Assembly: GCA_944472155.2 (NCBI GenBank)
Contig: OX235277.1
Span: forward strand, 21,958,804 to 22,022,803
Direction of reading: 5' to 3'
Length of the DNA: 64,000 bases
Source of the DNA: Trichobilharzia szidati
Lineage: Eukaryota > Platyhelminthes > Trematoda > Strigeidida > Schistosomatidae
A program made the position numbers and the translations under genes. The notes under the pieces were generated by a model. It searched no databases, was not told the DNA's origin, and saw only the letters and a list, made by a program, of their open reading frames with translations. Shown piece by piece: positions 1,006-46,121 of the stretch. Position 1 is the stretch's first letter. Every line of letters begins with the position of its first letter.

Positions 1006-1121
1006 TTATCTTATCTGTCTACATGTGACACAAATGAAAATCATTAACACATTTCCCAAAAAAATTTTTTGATAAATAAACAGTAGCTACTATTTAGTTT
1101 AAAGTGGAAATATCAACTTAC

Positions 1122-1130
1122 GACCCAATC
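1122..1130 (-). CDS. 9-nt microexon GATTGGGTC
   Basis: The acceptor is ATAATCGCTTTAAG and the donor GTAAGTTGAT. The donor is strong and the acceptor moderate. This is the leftmost exon I can support. Confidence 0.4.
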
Positions 1131-2487
1131 CTTAAAGCGATTATATGTTAGCCGAAAATACTCAAAATGACTCAGTAGTTTATTGTGGTTAATTATGGAA
1201 AGCCTTATCCAATTTCAGTAGATGATATAAAAACTAATTCCTGTTTGCAATAATGTCTGTGTAAAAGGTGAACATTGTTGAACATTGCATATCATATCAC
1301 GCCTTTTGTTAATATCATCACGAAAAATATATTTCTTTTGGAAAACACCAACCAATAGATTCATTTCGTTGTACTTTGGTCGAACACATATTTATGAAAC
1401 AATATGGATGATAATTTGATAGTACAAAGTGTTAAGTTAACTATTTCAACTTCCACAATGGAAACGACTCCTGAATTTAAGCACAAATAGTCGGATAAGT
1501 AGACGTTTTCCTGAGTTTAGTCGTCTGATTGGCCTCACACCGATAGGGACAAAATTTGCAGAGGGTACGTGGCAGCTATTGCATATTCTCTATATGACTT
1601 TCAATAAATTGGCTCAATATTAAAATCGCGCATGTTGTTCTTAGCTTCTAATATAGTCGTTTTTAAAAGGTTAGAAAACAAAATTTTCGTTCCAAGAAGT
1701 ACCAAATCTAGAAATCATTATTGCAATTATAGATCTCTATGCCTAGTAACGTAATTCGTTTGAAGATTCCGTGATCAGATGTACAATAAACAGTTACACT
1801 TTTGCATTCCTGTTGGTCGGAGAACCGTTTTAAGTGTAATTCAGTTGTGGTAGATTTTATAAACTTGACAGCCAGCATCGGCGAGAATATGAAAAGTGAA
1901 TGTTTAGCAGAGACTCTAGCAGTGTCACATTAATTAGGCTGATCACCATACTATGAACTCATTCAGGGTAACCTTTTGCTGTGGATATGATTATCAGTAA
2001 ATTTCGGGCACTGAATAATTACTACTGCATAAACTCTGATCACTCTTCAGCTCACTGATTTTCTTCTTGCTTTCATACGTCATCTGTGTTCTTCTTCACC
2101 ATATTTTCTTGCAGACAATCTTGTAATCTTGTTAGGCTTATTCATGTGTAATAACCTGTGCACTGCATAGTAAAAGCACTATTCAAAGAAATAATTTGCA
2201 CGTACTTGCGGCTTGAAAAAATTATAGTAAATCAAAAGAAACCTACCAGTCATCAATTCCGCAACATTTGCATTGTACTGTTGACAGCACACTCGATCTC
2301 GCATTTACAAATGAAAACGTATGTATTGAGAGTCAACTGACTTCGAATATTTGTTCAGTCTTTCGTGCACTACTCAAAACTGTCAGCCACTAATACTCTA
2401 CTGCTAGTTATTTTACATTAAATAAACCTGGATCACTGTATCACATAGGCGAAGAAATAACAGAATTAAGTTTGAGTTGTCACTCAC

Positions 2488-2496
2488 GTCTACCCA
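2488..2496 (-). CDS. 9-nt microexon TGGGTAGAC
   Basis: The acceptor is ATGTTTTCTTATTTAG and the donor GTGAGTGACA. The phase 1 core is Gly-Arg. Confidence 0.5.
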
Positions 2497-4079
2497 CTAA
2501 ATAAGAAAACATGGCAGTGAGAAACATTCAAAATATAAGCTAATTTTTCTTCATAACTATTTAAATGAATTATTATCCACACCATTTGGATCGCATAATA
2601 TTTCAGACATCTTTTGATCAATGCGTGTGTACAAATTAGATATTTTGGACTTATGGATTAGCGCAATGCAATCTAATCATATCCTCTGATAATATTATGA
2701 AACGTGACTATTATTTCAGACGTCACTTAGTTAATGGTACTACTTAACTATGCTGCATTTTCAATGAAATATTTTATACGGAATATTTTCATCAATAGCT
2801 TCATCAGTTTCTAAGTGATATGATGTTGAGCCAGGAACCAGATGAGTGTGAGGCATTAAGCCAATAACCTAACTCAGGGAAAAGCACCACCCAATGACAT
2901 TAACACTCAGATACAACACGTAAAACATCGAAGTACTACTAATAACATTGATGCACAAAACAAAGATTACTACTCCGGACAACTGCGAAAAGTCTTGGAT
3001 TAGATCATGAAACGATGTCAACAATTCCTGATAGACGATATGAAGGCAGACTGCAGGTAGACGACATTGAAAGTCTTATCATGTTTTGAAAGGCACCCTT
3101 TTGCAATGTTTGAGAACAGTAGACGTCACCCCATACACAAGAAAGTTGAGATGCAGCCTGCTGAACAAAGAATCAAGAAGAGGACTCAGTGAGTGATATA
3201 TTATTATCTAATGGAAGAAATTTTGAGGTCAACTTGAAAGCATTTGACAGAAGCCAGAAGTAAACTGCAATTAAAGCTGAACACATAGAATCTGTAATAG
3301 TGCAGACCAACGAAGAGTCTCTTTGGCGAATTCATTCACTTTTCCCTACAATCGCAATTATATTTACTTATTTTTTGTATGTGTGTACATTAGATATTTC
3401 TGATAAGAATACAAATTACATGGGTTATTGCTGTCAAGACATCATAAATACGCAATGGGTAATGAAATTGTAAGTAGGGAGGGTGAAGATTGACAAAAGG
3501 GTTGCAGTTATGTTTTAATCAAAAACTGTTACTGATGATAATAAGCGCATAAAAGAATTTGAATAAGCTTAATACAGTTACGTAGTAAGATGAATGGTTT
3601 ATTGAGTGAGTTGTGATTAGGATTCACATGGAAACGAAGAAAGTATGGAATTAAATAAGTGTTGTAAACAGTTTACAAATATTATAAGGAGTAACAACCA
3701 TTTCAGAAAGGTTCTTTCGACGTATATCCCAATGTACAAACACCTTCAAAAACAATTATGTACAAATGCGACTGCACAGCTAAGTGACTGAATTTTCCAA
3801 AAAGAGACTCTTCGTTGAATTAGTGTTTTCTTTTTATTATTTTCTGAGTGAGGATTATCCACGGAAAGTACAGACATAAAAGAAAGCTAGAGACATTATT
3901 ATGTCTGGATATCTTTAAAATCATCGGATAAGAAATCCTGTATGACTACGGAGGGATGCAGAATGGTGGGCATCAGAAATGGACCCCCACAAACACCGCG
4001 AATCTCAATGATCTAGCGAGATGTTGACGCAAGTTATGAGGCGTTGCAGACATCCTTCTTCGTTGACGCACCTCCTCAC

Positions 4080-43674: not shown

Positions 43675-43895
43675 TAGTCTTTAAGGGAATTGGCTAAATG
43701 GTCTACGAATTGGCTTGCATTGTAAACAGAAGGTCCTGGGTTCCAAACCTTGTGGATGCGTAGTGATGCAGAGTCTTAAACTATGGCGAAACAGCTGTCC
43801 AGTACTCCGATGTTTTCCAATTGTTTTTTAACCAATGTTGGCTCATGATGAAATTCGGTAACCAATCATTCAAATCGCTACAAACTAAAACTTCA
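43675..43895 (+). mobile_element. tRNA-derived SINE, Sm-alpha-like
   Basis: A-box-like TGGCTAAATGGTCTACG is followed by the B-box region CCTGGGTTCCAAACC, AACAGCTGTCCAGTACTCC and GCTCATGATGAAAT. Confidence 0.65.
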
Positions 43896-45369
43896 ATAGG
43901 ATTTATTTAGACAGCTGCTAACATTAATGAAAAACATTCCTTATGCCACGATCAAAATTCTTATAGATGATATGGGTACTTAACTGAGGCTTGATAATTC
44001 AGGGAAACGATGCATTATTAGTTGGAAGGCTCTCGACGAAATCTATGAGAATGGAGGACTTTGCTAACTTCTGCGCATTTTATTGGTTCGGAGATTGGAT
44101 GAAGCGTGTGCACTCAAGGTGTATACACAAGGCAATATTGGTTTCAGCACCGATAAAAATACGTCTGACTGATAAAACTTCGAAACTTCTTGTTAGTTTA
44201 ACGGTTTTATCTCAGATTTATTCGCCACTCATTATTGAAGATTAACTGGACGCGTTAAGTTAAAGCGCGTGTATGCTTGGTCAAAGGACTTTTCCTTCTT
44301 GATTTTTTGTTAATACGTCAAGACAAACTGCAAGTAATTTTTCATTCATCCTCATGATTTTCTGTTATTACAACGGACTATATTGATGGTCTTAATTTTT
44401 CCATATGAGTTACTCATAGGATCGGATCGATATTACTTGGATTAAGGTTTATAAATAGACCCAAGTGAAGATTCACAAAGAAAGAAAATCCTACCACACA
44501 CTCACAATGTGAACGACAAGTAGCAGGATTTGAAAAGAGGCCACAAAAGGTGTTATTAAAGAGCTCACTGTAAAAGATGATTACTTGAAACATAAAAGAC
44601 TGATTCAGGAGGTAGTGGTTTGTAATTCTCGAGTTTGACTGCTCACTTCATTAGGACAACAGTATAAACATATATCTGGGAATGTCAGAAATGGATAATT
44701 CTTACAAAGTGCACTAGGACTTCTTATGTGACAACCATATTTTGACTTCTTTCAATAGATGATGAAATGTCATAGTTCCTAAAAATAGTAAGAAATGATT
44801 TGACTAGTTTTAAGTCGATTGGAACTACTGGGGATTTATAACATTAGGATACATTTCTTATTGGTATTGTCACGAATGCTACAGTTTCTTACTGGCAGAT
44901 TTTATAGTTTAACTACAAACTAAGTGGTCCGGAATTCCTCAAAGTTGAGTTAAAGCATTGAATGACAACCCATCACCGCCCAAATACTCATCACTTCAAC
45001 CTGATGTGTCCTAAAACAATAACGATCATGATGGACATTCCTAATATAGTCACTGCCGTTTCAGTTAATCATAAGCAACACTGACATCGATTCACGCAGT
45101 TTCTTAGTAATGATCCGCAGAAAAATAAGCTTTAGGTAATTTCGCATCAACCAAATCAAAACTCTCAGTGTAAATTGAAGAACATAAAATACCTTGCTCT
45201 TTATTGCCTGGATAGGGTTCATAAAAAATATTTGTACCCATCAAATGATGATGTTATAATAACGATGTGTTCTTATAGCTCACAGTATGATGTACATGAG
45301 TCAATGTGACTTAGTCACATTAATCATATAACGGGTCTTCGAGAAACAATAGTGAGAGTAAACATGGTG

Positions 45370-45558
45370 TTACTGAAGAATTCGAAACGCACTGAAATAC
45401 TGTGAAACCACTTTATCCAAATACTTCTTAAAGTTGTATTTCCAATACATTAATGGGACTATTATACTGATAACAATGAAAACATAAATAATCTTAGTTA
45501 ACTTTAGTTGACGACAGAATCGTTTTTGACGATATATGCAACAAAATGCCTTCCACAT
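45370..45558 (-). CDS. Possible small type II membrane protein
   Basis: A 62-residue frame begins MWKAFCCIYRQKRFCRQ, a basic Cys-rich head, followed by a hydrophobic segment IIYVFIVISIIVPLMYW and a basic tail. The layout resembles the N-terminus of Golgi glycosyltransferases. It lies about 500 bp downstream of the MEG signal-peptide exon, in what would be its first intron. No poly(A) signal or splice site clearly belongs to it. Confidence 0.25.
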   Translation of the reverse strand: MWKAFCCIYRQKRFCRQLKLTKIIYVFIVISIIVPLMYWKYNFKKYLDKVVSQYFSAFRILQ

Positions 45559-46054
45559 TTACCACACTTCATCGTCCATGACACAGGAGTTTGAGTTAAA
45601 TTGTGACTGATTAACCCTTAATGAGCACCCATGAATAAAGAGACTGATCTTCTGTCCCTTTAAATGTTAGATGAGGTTGAAATGTTAAAGCACACAAACT
45701 CAAATTATTGTCTAAATTTTCCGACGAAATATATTGTGTGGATTTGAAATATCATTATACTTTGAGCGAGAGTTGATGCTTAAACACGCCAGTTTGGCAC
45801 TTCATTTATAACATTTATTGTAATCTGCACTTTTAAGTGTTTCTGCCAGTTTACTCATGTGTTATTCATGAATCGTGATTGTATTGCACCATGACCTTTC
45901 ATAATACGAAAATCTTGCATGTAAATACCAGTGAGAGGGGAATTCTTTCCGCCGATGGGTTCATTCATGAAATAGATATAGGTATTAAGATGAATATTTA
46001 TACAAAAAATTGTTCACCCAATCAGAAGTTAATCCCGAAAACATCAGAACTTAC

Positions 46055-46121
46055 CTGAGTTACCTCCAATGTGAATCACCATGATGAACAAGCAGAAAAG
46101 CAGGCTCAGTATAACTTTCAT
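46055..46121 (-). CDS. Signal-peptide first coding exon of a micro-exon gene (MEG)
   Basis: The frame opens at the ATG complementary to 46119-46121 and encodes 22 residues beginning MKVILSLLFC and ending VIHIGGNS. This is a short basic start followed by a strong hydrophobic core, a classical secretory signal. The exon stops after one extra base (TCA G) at a consensus donor, CAG|GTAAGTTC, so it ends in phase 1. In schistosomes, MEG proteins start with exactly this kind of signal-peptide exon, followed by many exons of 6-36 nt whose lengths are multiples of 3. That pattern follows leftwards on the same strand. The 5' UTR boundary and promoter cannot be fixed from sequence. Nothing identifies which MEG family this is. 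It could also be the first exon of another small secreted protein, but the shared phase with the downstream microexons argues for one gene. Confidence 0.75.

Follow-up and report, generated by a model that had tools for sequence, protein, structure and literature searches.

Which gene, if any, occupies a 64,000-nt stretch of the Trichobilharzia szidati genome (assembly GCA_944472155.2, contig OX235277.1, here C7, positions 21958804-22022803; hereafter the window) in which the splice-like signals of one strand stand 9 nt apart over tens of kilobases? An earlier note, made from the letters of the window alone, had read this pattern as a minus-strand micro-exon gene (MEG) dominated by 9-nt exons, a reading that sister copies of the locus support. 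The locus is very probably one of about 26 copies of a giant MEG of this schistosomatid fluke. We have high confidence that the exons and the array of copies are real features of the sequence, and transcription as one giant MEG is likely, presumably in one continuous transcript. A diversity system facing the host is our leading inference as to its use.

The window copy (W) was compared with three sister copies of 50-60 kb each, designated B (C7:22097121, minus strand), C (C7:21444990, plus strand, covered only as far as the homologue of window position ~500) and D (C7:22291950, minus strand), and searches were made of the whole assembly (1.114 Gb, 907 contigs). Negative window positions lie beyond the window start. 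In 4-kb steps, the G+C content of the window is 34-37%.

A 9-nt spacing of splice signals on one strand

The minus strand between 1100 and 46121 has 74 GTRAG donors, and an AG lies exactly 9 nt upstream of 21 of them, compared with an average of 3.9 donors for the other 36 lengths from 3 to 39 nt. With a pyrimidine-rich acceptor required, the 9-nt spacing is found at 13 of the 74 donors and the 6-nt spacing at five, and lengths outside 6, 9 and 12 nt average 0.44; the hand count of 16 in about 60 donors given in the earlier note was about right. Among the controls, the plus strand of the window had a 9-nt acceptor at 1/113 donors, and 200 dinucleotide shuffles gave a mean of 0.52 and a maximum of 3. 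No such acceptor was found at the 22 donors in the 18 kb upstream of the signal-peptide exon, which bears out the observation that the pattern stops at that exon. The same spacing was seen on the gene strand of B, C and D (16/95, 14/80 and 16/95 donors) against 1/69, 2/79 and 3/78 donors on their opposite strands, and past the window (1 to -16950) it occurs at 3/22 donors, with 1/23 on the opposite strand.

We then scored AG..GT pairs as conserved if AG, GT and an equal length were present in every aligned copy and at least two copies aligned. Twenty conserved pairs of 9 nt were found on the gene strand and one on the opposite strand, whereas every other length from 3 to 39 nt gave 0-3 and 0-4 pairs, respectively. 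No frame filter was applied in picking the 25 conserved pairs of 6, 9 or 12 nt, and in each of them phase 1 is open in every copy that aligns. The range of 6-33 nt originally proposed for the exons needs correction, in that only 9 nt stands out and longer pairs in the window are at background level; those longer pairs that looked conserved are thinly spread over lengths, and many are not multiples of 3. A proposed exon of 168 nt found no support in either of its open candidates: that at 41530-41363 could be aligned in copy C only, and that at 21079-20912 has AG and GT in copy C (168 nt) and in B (170 nt, frame broken), has no alignment in D, and uses the donor of the conserved 9-nt exon 20920-20912.

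A 59-kb gene model in a single phase

The predicted gene runs on the minus strand from 46121 to at least -13030 (59.15 kb) and has 34 exons totalling 403 nt, consisting of a 67-nt signal-peptide exon and 33 phase-1 micro-exons, 23 of which are 9 nt long. It extends past the proposed range of 1100-46121 and does not end in the window, since conserved exons run on beyond the window start. The signal-peptide exon itself was confirmed at 46121-46055, with the perfect donor (CAG/GTAAGT) claimed for it. The exons of the model, and one tentative addition, are listed below.

46055..46121, minus: exon 1, coding part, 67 nt, signal-peptide-like; ends in phase 1, donor GTAAGT; 27 strong genome copies
42375..42383, minus: 9-nt micro-exon ATGAGAAGA; AG/GT kept in B, C and D; flank related to exon 20920
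38205..38213, minus: 9-nt micro-exon TGTGTAAAG, Cys-Lys/Glu; 9 nt, AG and GT in 24/24 copies
37725..37733, minus: 9-nt micro-exon AAGCAGTAG, Ala-Val; 9 nt, AG and GT in 24/24 copies
36703..36711, minus: 9-nt micro-exon; conserved in B, C and D
35727..35735, minus: 9-nt micro-exon TCAGACAGA (TGAAAGGGG in B and D); conserved in B, C and D
34547..34555, minus: 9-nt micro-exon; surrounding segment alignable between W and C only; matches weakly (E 0.006) a C3 paralogue stretch with a 9-nt exon
33208..33213, minus: 6-nt micro-exon, W and C only, identical in C; less certain
28789..28800, minus: 12-nt micro-exon, W and C only, 6/12 letters differing in C; less certain
23868..23879, minus: 12-nt micro-exon; conserved in B, C and D
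22127..22132, minus: 6-nt micro-exon; conserved in B, C and D
20912..20920, minus: 9-nt micro-exon; conserved in B, C and D
19789..19797, minus: 9-nt micro-exon ATTGTAAAG, Cys-Lys/Glu, related to 38213; 9 nt, AG and GT in 24/24 copies
19304..19312, minus: 9-nt micro-exon CTGCAGTTC; 9 nt, AG and GT in 24/24 copies
18512..18520, minus: 9-nt micro-exon; conserved in B, C and D
16494..16505, minus: 12-nt micro-exon; conserved in B, C and D
15876..15884, minus: 9-nt micro-exon; conserved in B, C and D
9919..9927, minus: 9-nt micro-exon; conserved in B, C and D
9243..9251, minus: 9-nt micro-exon; conserved in B, C and D
7173..7181, minus: 9-nt micro-exon; conserved in B, C and D
6627..6632, minus: 6-nt micro-exon; conserved in B, C and D
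4835..4843, minus: 9-nt micro-exon GGGAATTTT (ATGATTTTT in B and D, by eye); from sister-copy comparison
2488..2496, minus: 9-nt micro-exon; conserved in B, C and D
580..588, minus: 9-nt micro-exon, the last inside the window; the model continues outside
Outside the window, minus (length in nt): -1554 (9), -2644 (9), -3312 (9), -4341 (9), -5652 (6)
Outside the window, minus, continued: -7254 (9), -8318 (21), -8919 (9), -9322 (21), -13004 (27)
-16085, minus: tentative 6-nt exon; pair unchanged in W, B and D

A number of candidates were left out of the model: 243-235 (9 nt) has a weak acceptor, 40869 (3 nt) has lost its donor in copy C, and 32503, 30568 and 27807 (9 nt) have the donor GTAGGC. 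Also excluded were -8768 (3 nt), 43590-43534 and 26502 (15 nt).

Every internal exon of the model has a length divisible by 3 and is open in phase 1, and for 25 of them frame was no selection criterion. Stops were counted on a 33-exon model, which exon -1554 joined afterwards to make 34; complete codons held 0/255 stops in phase 1, 22/365 in phase 0 and 41/255 in phase 2, and junction codons in W held 0/32, although these counts are partly built in, as a frame filter had been used in selecting 7 of the 32 internal exons.

At the 3′ end, W, B and D have an identical 27-nt exon at -13004 followed by an identical GTAAGT donor, in flanks that differ by 7-14%. A stop at -13065 was rejected as the gene's end, since the first 27 nt and the donor stay unchanged and the remainder varies, and a last exon at -16927 was dropped (no synonymous and two nonsynonymous changes). 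Because similarity to B and D continues to about -21,400 and -23,500, respectively, conservation alone does not mark where the gene ends. A point against a single giant gene is that 27 stop-ended candidates between -13031 and -21500 keep acceptor, length and stop in both B and D, and none of them stands out as the last exon.

These results leave some room for a real MEG array in which transcripts use part of the exon list, with alternative first or last exons, so that the giant gene would really be two or more shorter genes that overlap, an arrangement that we regard as unlikely but not negligible. It would suit an exon list that is itself predicted, in which the last exon first proposed did not hold, and the presence of two long introns in the model, one of 4.9 kb between 28800 and 23879 and one of 5.9 kb between 15884 and 9927 that has a retroelement inside. 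On the other hand, phase 1 is common to all modelled exons, and exon 1, 24 internal exons and the 27-nt exon keep a colinear order in both B and D.

Predicted protein

Joined in order, the 33-exon model translates into 131 residues with no stop, to which exon -1554 adds three. The predicted protein is hydrophobic at its start and has a core rich in Lys and Glu that contains two Cys, as well as a stretch rich in Thr and Ser. Its N-terminus, MKVILSLLFCLFIMVIHIGGNS, is similar in the copies compared, and its likeness to a signal peptide was judged by eye. A protein database search returned no homologue at E<=1 and no match to a named MEG among 11 candidates that shared words with the query, in a database that possibly lacks the S. 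mansoni MEG proteins, and no Pfam family scored above its cut-off for the joined translation. The suggestion of a new family is plausible, though weakly tested by these searches. One weak match to S_100, covering residues 90-106, scored 15.9 bits where the cut-off is 22; it runs across several exons and was put down to chance.

An array of copies on C7 and relatives on C3

A genome search with the 301 bases around exon 1 gave 32 matches, of which 27 are strong (79-100% identity) and five, on C3 and C593, are weak (69-72%); here and for two further anchors the counts are lower bounds. Twenty-six of the strong copies lie on C7 between 19.60 and 23.55 Mb (3.95 Mb; 17 plus, 9 minus), at a spacing of 52-786 kb with a median of 104 kb, and one lies at C3:29.0 Mb. 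A 601-base anchor containing exons 19797 and 19312 gave 30 matches, read as 24 near-complete copies, two interrupted copies (four matches) and two short pieces, while an 801-base anchor containing exons 38213 and 37733 gave 36 matches, consisting of 26 copies and 10 short pieces.

Identity to W at the three anchors was allotted to copies according to their position, which gave 25 copies for comparison (23 at the third anchor), W and the copy at C7:23325154 being excluded. The correlation between exon 1 and the two exon anchors was weak (Spearman 0.36, p 0.08, and -0.10, p 0.66), and that between the exon anchors themselves was moderate (Spearman 0.51, p 0.01). This unevenness suggests, short of proof, that sequence may have been exchanged between array copies.

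Two loci on C3 carry related sequence. At C3:115.98 Mb (10 kb), 4 of 11 GTRAG donors have a 9-nt acceptor, and among five stretches that match W are the exon-1 region (68%), a 9-nt exon (76%) and, weakly, another 9-nt exon (77%, E 0.006). The locus at C3:126.88 Mb (5 kb) contains exon 1 and three 9-nt exons, and of its four stretches that match W, two hold exon 1 or a 9-nt exon and two adjoin one. Being 83-96% alike, the two loci do not count as independent evidence. When hand-picked stretches were aligned, both had TGC for TGT in the Cys exon and GCG for GCA in the Ala exon, a sign of coding constraint.

Short matches spanning exon 38213 and its flanks (70-77% over 106-141 bases) were also observed on C472 and C422 and at C3:30.58, C3:0.28 and C3:126.68 Mb, and are perhaps parts of further micro-exon genes.

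Gain and loss of exon modules

Within the gene, exon 38213 and its flanks resemble exon 19797 (73% over 122 bases), the module of exon 42383 resembles that of 20920 (76% over 55 bases), and the module of -8318 resembles that of -9322 (81% over 241 bases). At 42904 lies a relative of exon 42383 in which both acceptor and donor are gone, and exon -1554 is a second copy of the -2644 module that has AG and GT in W and D and is broken in B. A stretch of ~10.6 kb with three extra exons is present in W and copy C and has no colinear counterpart in B or D. These alignments show that the predicted micro-exons duplicate as modules with their flanks and also get lost.

Two reverse-transcriptase-like frames, both recognised by eye, lie within the gene. 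An 834-codon stop-to-stop frame at 11456-13960 (minus) looks like a Penelope-like reverse transcriptase and is situated between 876-nt arms that are 100% complementary; the repeats extend over 10882-15306, and this insertion, in the intron 15884-9927, is absent from B, C and D. A fragment of another such frame at 26715-27095 (minus) adjoins the stretch found in W and copy C only, and copy C is longer by ~7.5 kb there.

Divergence of exons, introns and splice signals

Four exons were followed through sets of 24 copies, made up of W, B, C, D and 20 more. For exons 19797 and 19312 the additional copies are all the remaining near-complete anchor matches, and for 38213 and 37733 they are 20 of the 22 remaining (C7:21360714 and 21870092 excluded). 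The length of 9 nt, AG and GT are kept in 96/96 cases with no in-phase stop, the donor of exon 38213 being the weaker GTTAG in 2/24 copies. Exons 38213 and 19797 share a Cys codon that is TGT in 48/48 cases, and the inner residues of each are Cys-Lys in 11/24 copies and Cys-Glu in 13/24. Those of exon 37733 are Ala-Val in 15 copies, Leu-Val in 5 and Val-Val in 4, and those of exon 19312 are Ala-Leu in 15, Ala-Val in 7, and Ala-Ile and Thr-Leu in one each.

Pooled over exons (the 27-nt exon excluded and candidate 243 included), divergence from W was 46/252 (0.183) in B, 46/273 (0.168) in D and 16/207 (0.077) in C, as against 0.132, 0.117 and 0.023 in the flanking introns and 0.073, 0.067 and 0.010 in the splice signals. 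With blocks placed randomly in the flanks, the excess of exon over intron divergence had p values of 0.015 (B, 27 exons), 0.007 (D, 28 exons) and 0.0007 (C, 23 exons), which serve as guides rather than exact values, the copies being related and possibly exchanging sequence. Among 24 copies, the diversity of exons 19797 (0.217) and 19312 (0.291) exceeds that of the introns (0.117).

Several observations pull the other way. The low divergence of the splice signals is partly built in, the exons having been chosen by conserved AG and GT, and the exon excess is not uniform, with a diversity of 0.085 for exon 38213 (below the intron value of 0.125) and 0.153 for 37733; some 9-nt windows in the introns are as variable as the exons. 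Some cassettes are therefore fast-changing and others are not. The proportion of nonsynonymous differences (pN) clearly exceeds that of synonymous differences (pS) only for W-C (0.092/0.024); B-D has 0.085/0.044, the two are close for W-B (0.174/0.147), W-D (0.160/0.144) and C-D (0.229/0.213), and pN is the lower for B-C (0.188/0.202). The 19797-19312 anchor is interrupted in two copies, neither exon anchor finds a match at the signal-peptide copy C7:23325154, and at C3:115.98 Mb the other two matching stretches are repeat-like, the best-scoring stretch being a repeat and not an exon.

An array in decay, composed of former MEGs of which most, including W, are silent and in which fast exon change reflects relaxed constraint, would account for the many exons that diverge at or above the intron rate, the broken exon -1554 in B, the dead relative at 42904 and the two interrupted copies. 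Decay would also break some exons by stops, indels or loss of splice sites, yet the 96 cases all keep 9 nt, AG/GT and an open phase, the Cys codon is invariant, and the 27-nt exon is the same in three copies despite their differing flanks; we consider this explanation improbable. Chance spacing of splice-like motifs in AT-rich intergenic DNA is scarcely credible, for while a single micro-exon cannot be told from chance by its motif alone, the shuffles, the opposite strand, the upstream control and the conserved 9-nt pairs in the sister copies all contradict it.

A possible two-level source of diversity

If W is a giant MEG, its transcript would be at least 59 kb long, and splicing would join at least 33 symmetric phase-1 micro-exons, most of them 9 nt, to encode a protein of at least 134 residues. 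This protein would have a signal peptide at its N-terminus and a core that is strongly charged and probably helical, to which each of two related exon pairs contributes one Cys, together with a Ser/Thr-rich stretch. Since every micro-exon is symmetric, skipping any one of them would keep the frame. The splice signals would act as a fixed frame around changeable three-residue cassettes, themselves gained and lost as exon-plus-flank modules, and the array would diversify by duplication and, probably, by exchange between copies. A variable set of secreted or surface proteins facing the host is the likely use.

A fuller version of this scheme, which we put forward tentatively, is a two-level diversity machine of about 26 giant genes, most in one array, with conserved splice signals framing replaceable three-residue cassettes. 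Many of these cassettes would outpace intron DNA in their rate of change, would spread as modules of exon plus flank, and would be mixed by exchange between copies and by frame-neutral skipping, yielding a very large set of secreted variants on one disulphide-bearing scaffold.

Comparison with known micro-exon genes

MEGs have been operationally defined by at least 7 exons, of which at least half are <70 nt and divisible by 3, in a run of at least 4 (PMC7653826); 33 of the 34 exons of the predicted model are of this kind, all in one run. MEGs occur in schistosomes (PMC8293314), to which the spliced leader present in this genome also points, and in tapeworms as well (PMC7653826). Like the Schistosoma MEGs (S. 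mansoni MEG families 1-16 and 26-32), the gene predicted here combines a putative signal-peptide exon with many symmetric micro-exons and long introns, and the Schistosoma genes have secreted products and a raised ratio of nonsynonymous to synonymous substitution rates (dN/dS) (PMC10526429, PMC8293314, PMC5825161). The S. mansoni genes are described as having 10-20 very short exons, mostly of 15 bp, and introns of up to almost 5 kb, with an eight-gene MEG-2 chain (PMC10526429), whereas here at least 33 micro-exons, mostly of 9 nt, extend over at least 59 kb in about 26 copies. All S. mansoni MEGs are reported to carry, downstream of the signal peptide, a motif FL-phi-phi-F-X6-W-p-(K/H/R), which is not used to define the class (PMC10526429). 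The 131-residue translation lacks it, having no Trp; this translation covers neither exon -1554 nor the C-terminal end.

Among individual genes, S. mansoni MEG-8.2 is similar in having many micro-exons and a signal peptide (putative in the family of W), and differs in having 17 exons with 15 micro-exons of 12-33 bp (PMC12998952). MEG-3.1 contains a 9-bp exon copied with its surroundings and described as linked to mobile elements (PMC8293314), but this is a single exon, whereas 9 nt is the commonest length here, and both the gene itself and C3 contain further related modules. A cluster on Chr6 of Hymenolepis microstoma likewise shows tandem duplication, with ten MEGs sharing a start motif over about 430 kb, but it belongs to a tapeworm and has another start motif, about 43 kb per gene and fewer copies (PMC7653826). 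In the bird schistosomes T. szidati and T. regenti, 10 and 4 MEGs are known as transcripts, some of them not close to S. mansoni families (PMC6362228); the family of W is known as a predicted gene. We found no MEG of such size, 9-nt dominance or copy number in the literature searched, a search whose scope did not extend to preprints (bioRxiv), most subscription journals and the founding papers PMC2756445 and PMC2909574. The class is known, and the size, 9-nt dominance and copy number of this family look new.

The role of MEGs is given as unresolved in PMC10526429. Variation by exon skipping is one of the leading ideas, and about 26 alignable copies of one giant MEG allow the rates of exons, introns and splice sites to be compared exon by exon, making selection on three-residue cassettes directly testable. 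The duplication of micro-exons with their flanks, and their loss, provide a record at this locus of how such genes grow. There is also a warning for annotation, as ordinary gene finders will probably miss the roughly 400 coding bases spread over 59 kb, so that much of a 4-Mb region could look empty.

Upstream repeat and spliced-leader loci

Upstream of the gene, at window 62361-63454, is an inverted repeat with 374-nt arms that are 98% complementary. Elsewhere in the genome, the schistosome spliced leader was found at 181 places with <=3 mismatches (reversed control 0), the best having 1 mismatch. Among the matches listed, tandem arrays lie at C6:10.98-11.05 Mb and C7:63.66-63.98 Mb, with a spacing of about 1.13 kb and 1.25-1.3 kb, respectively, and two leader variants occur, mostly with 1 and 2 mismatches to the leader used as query.

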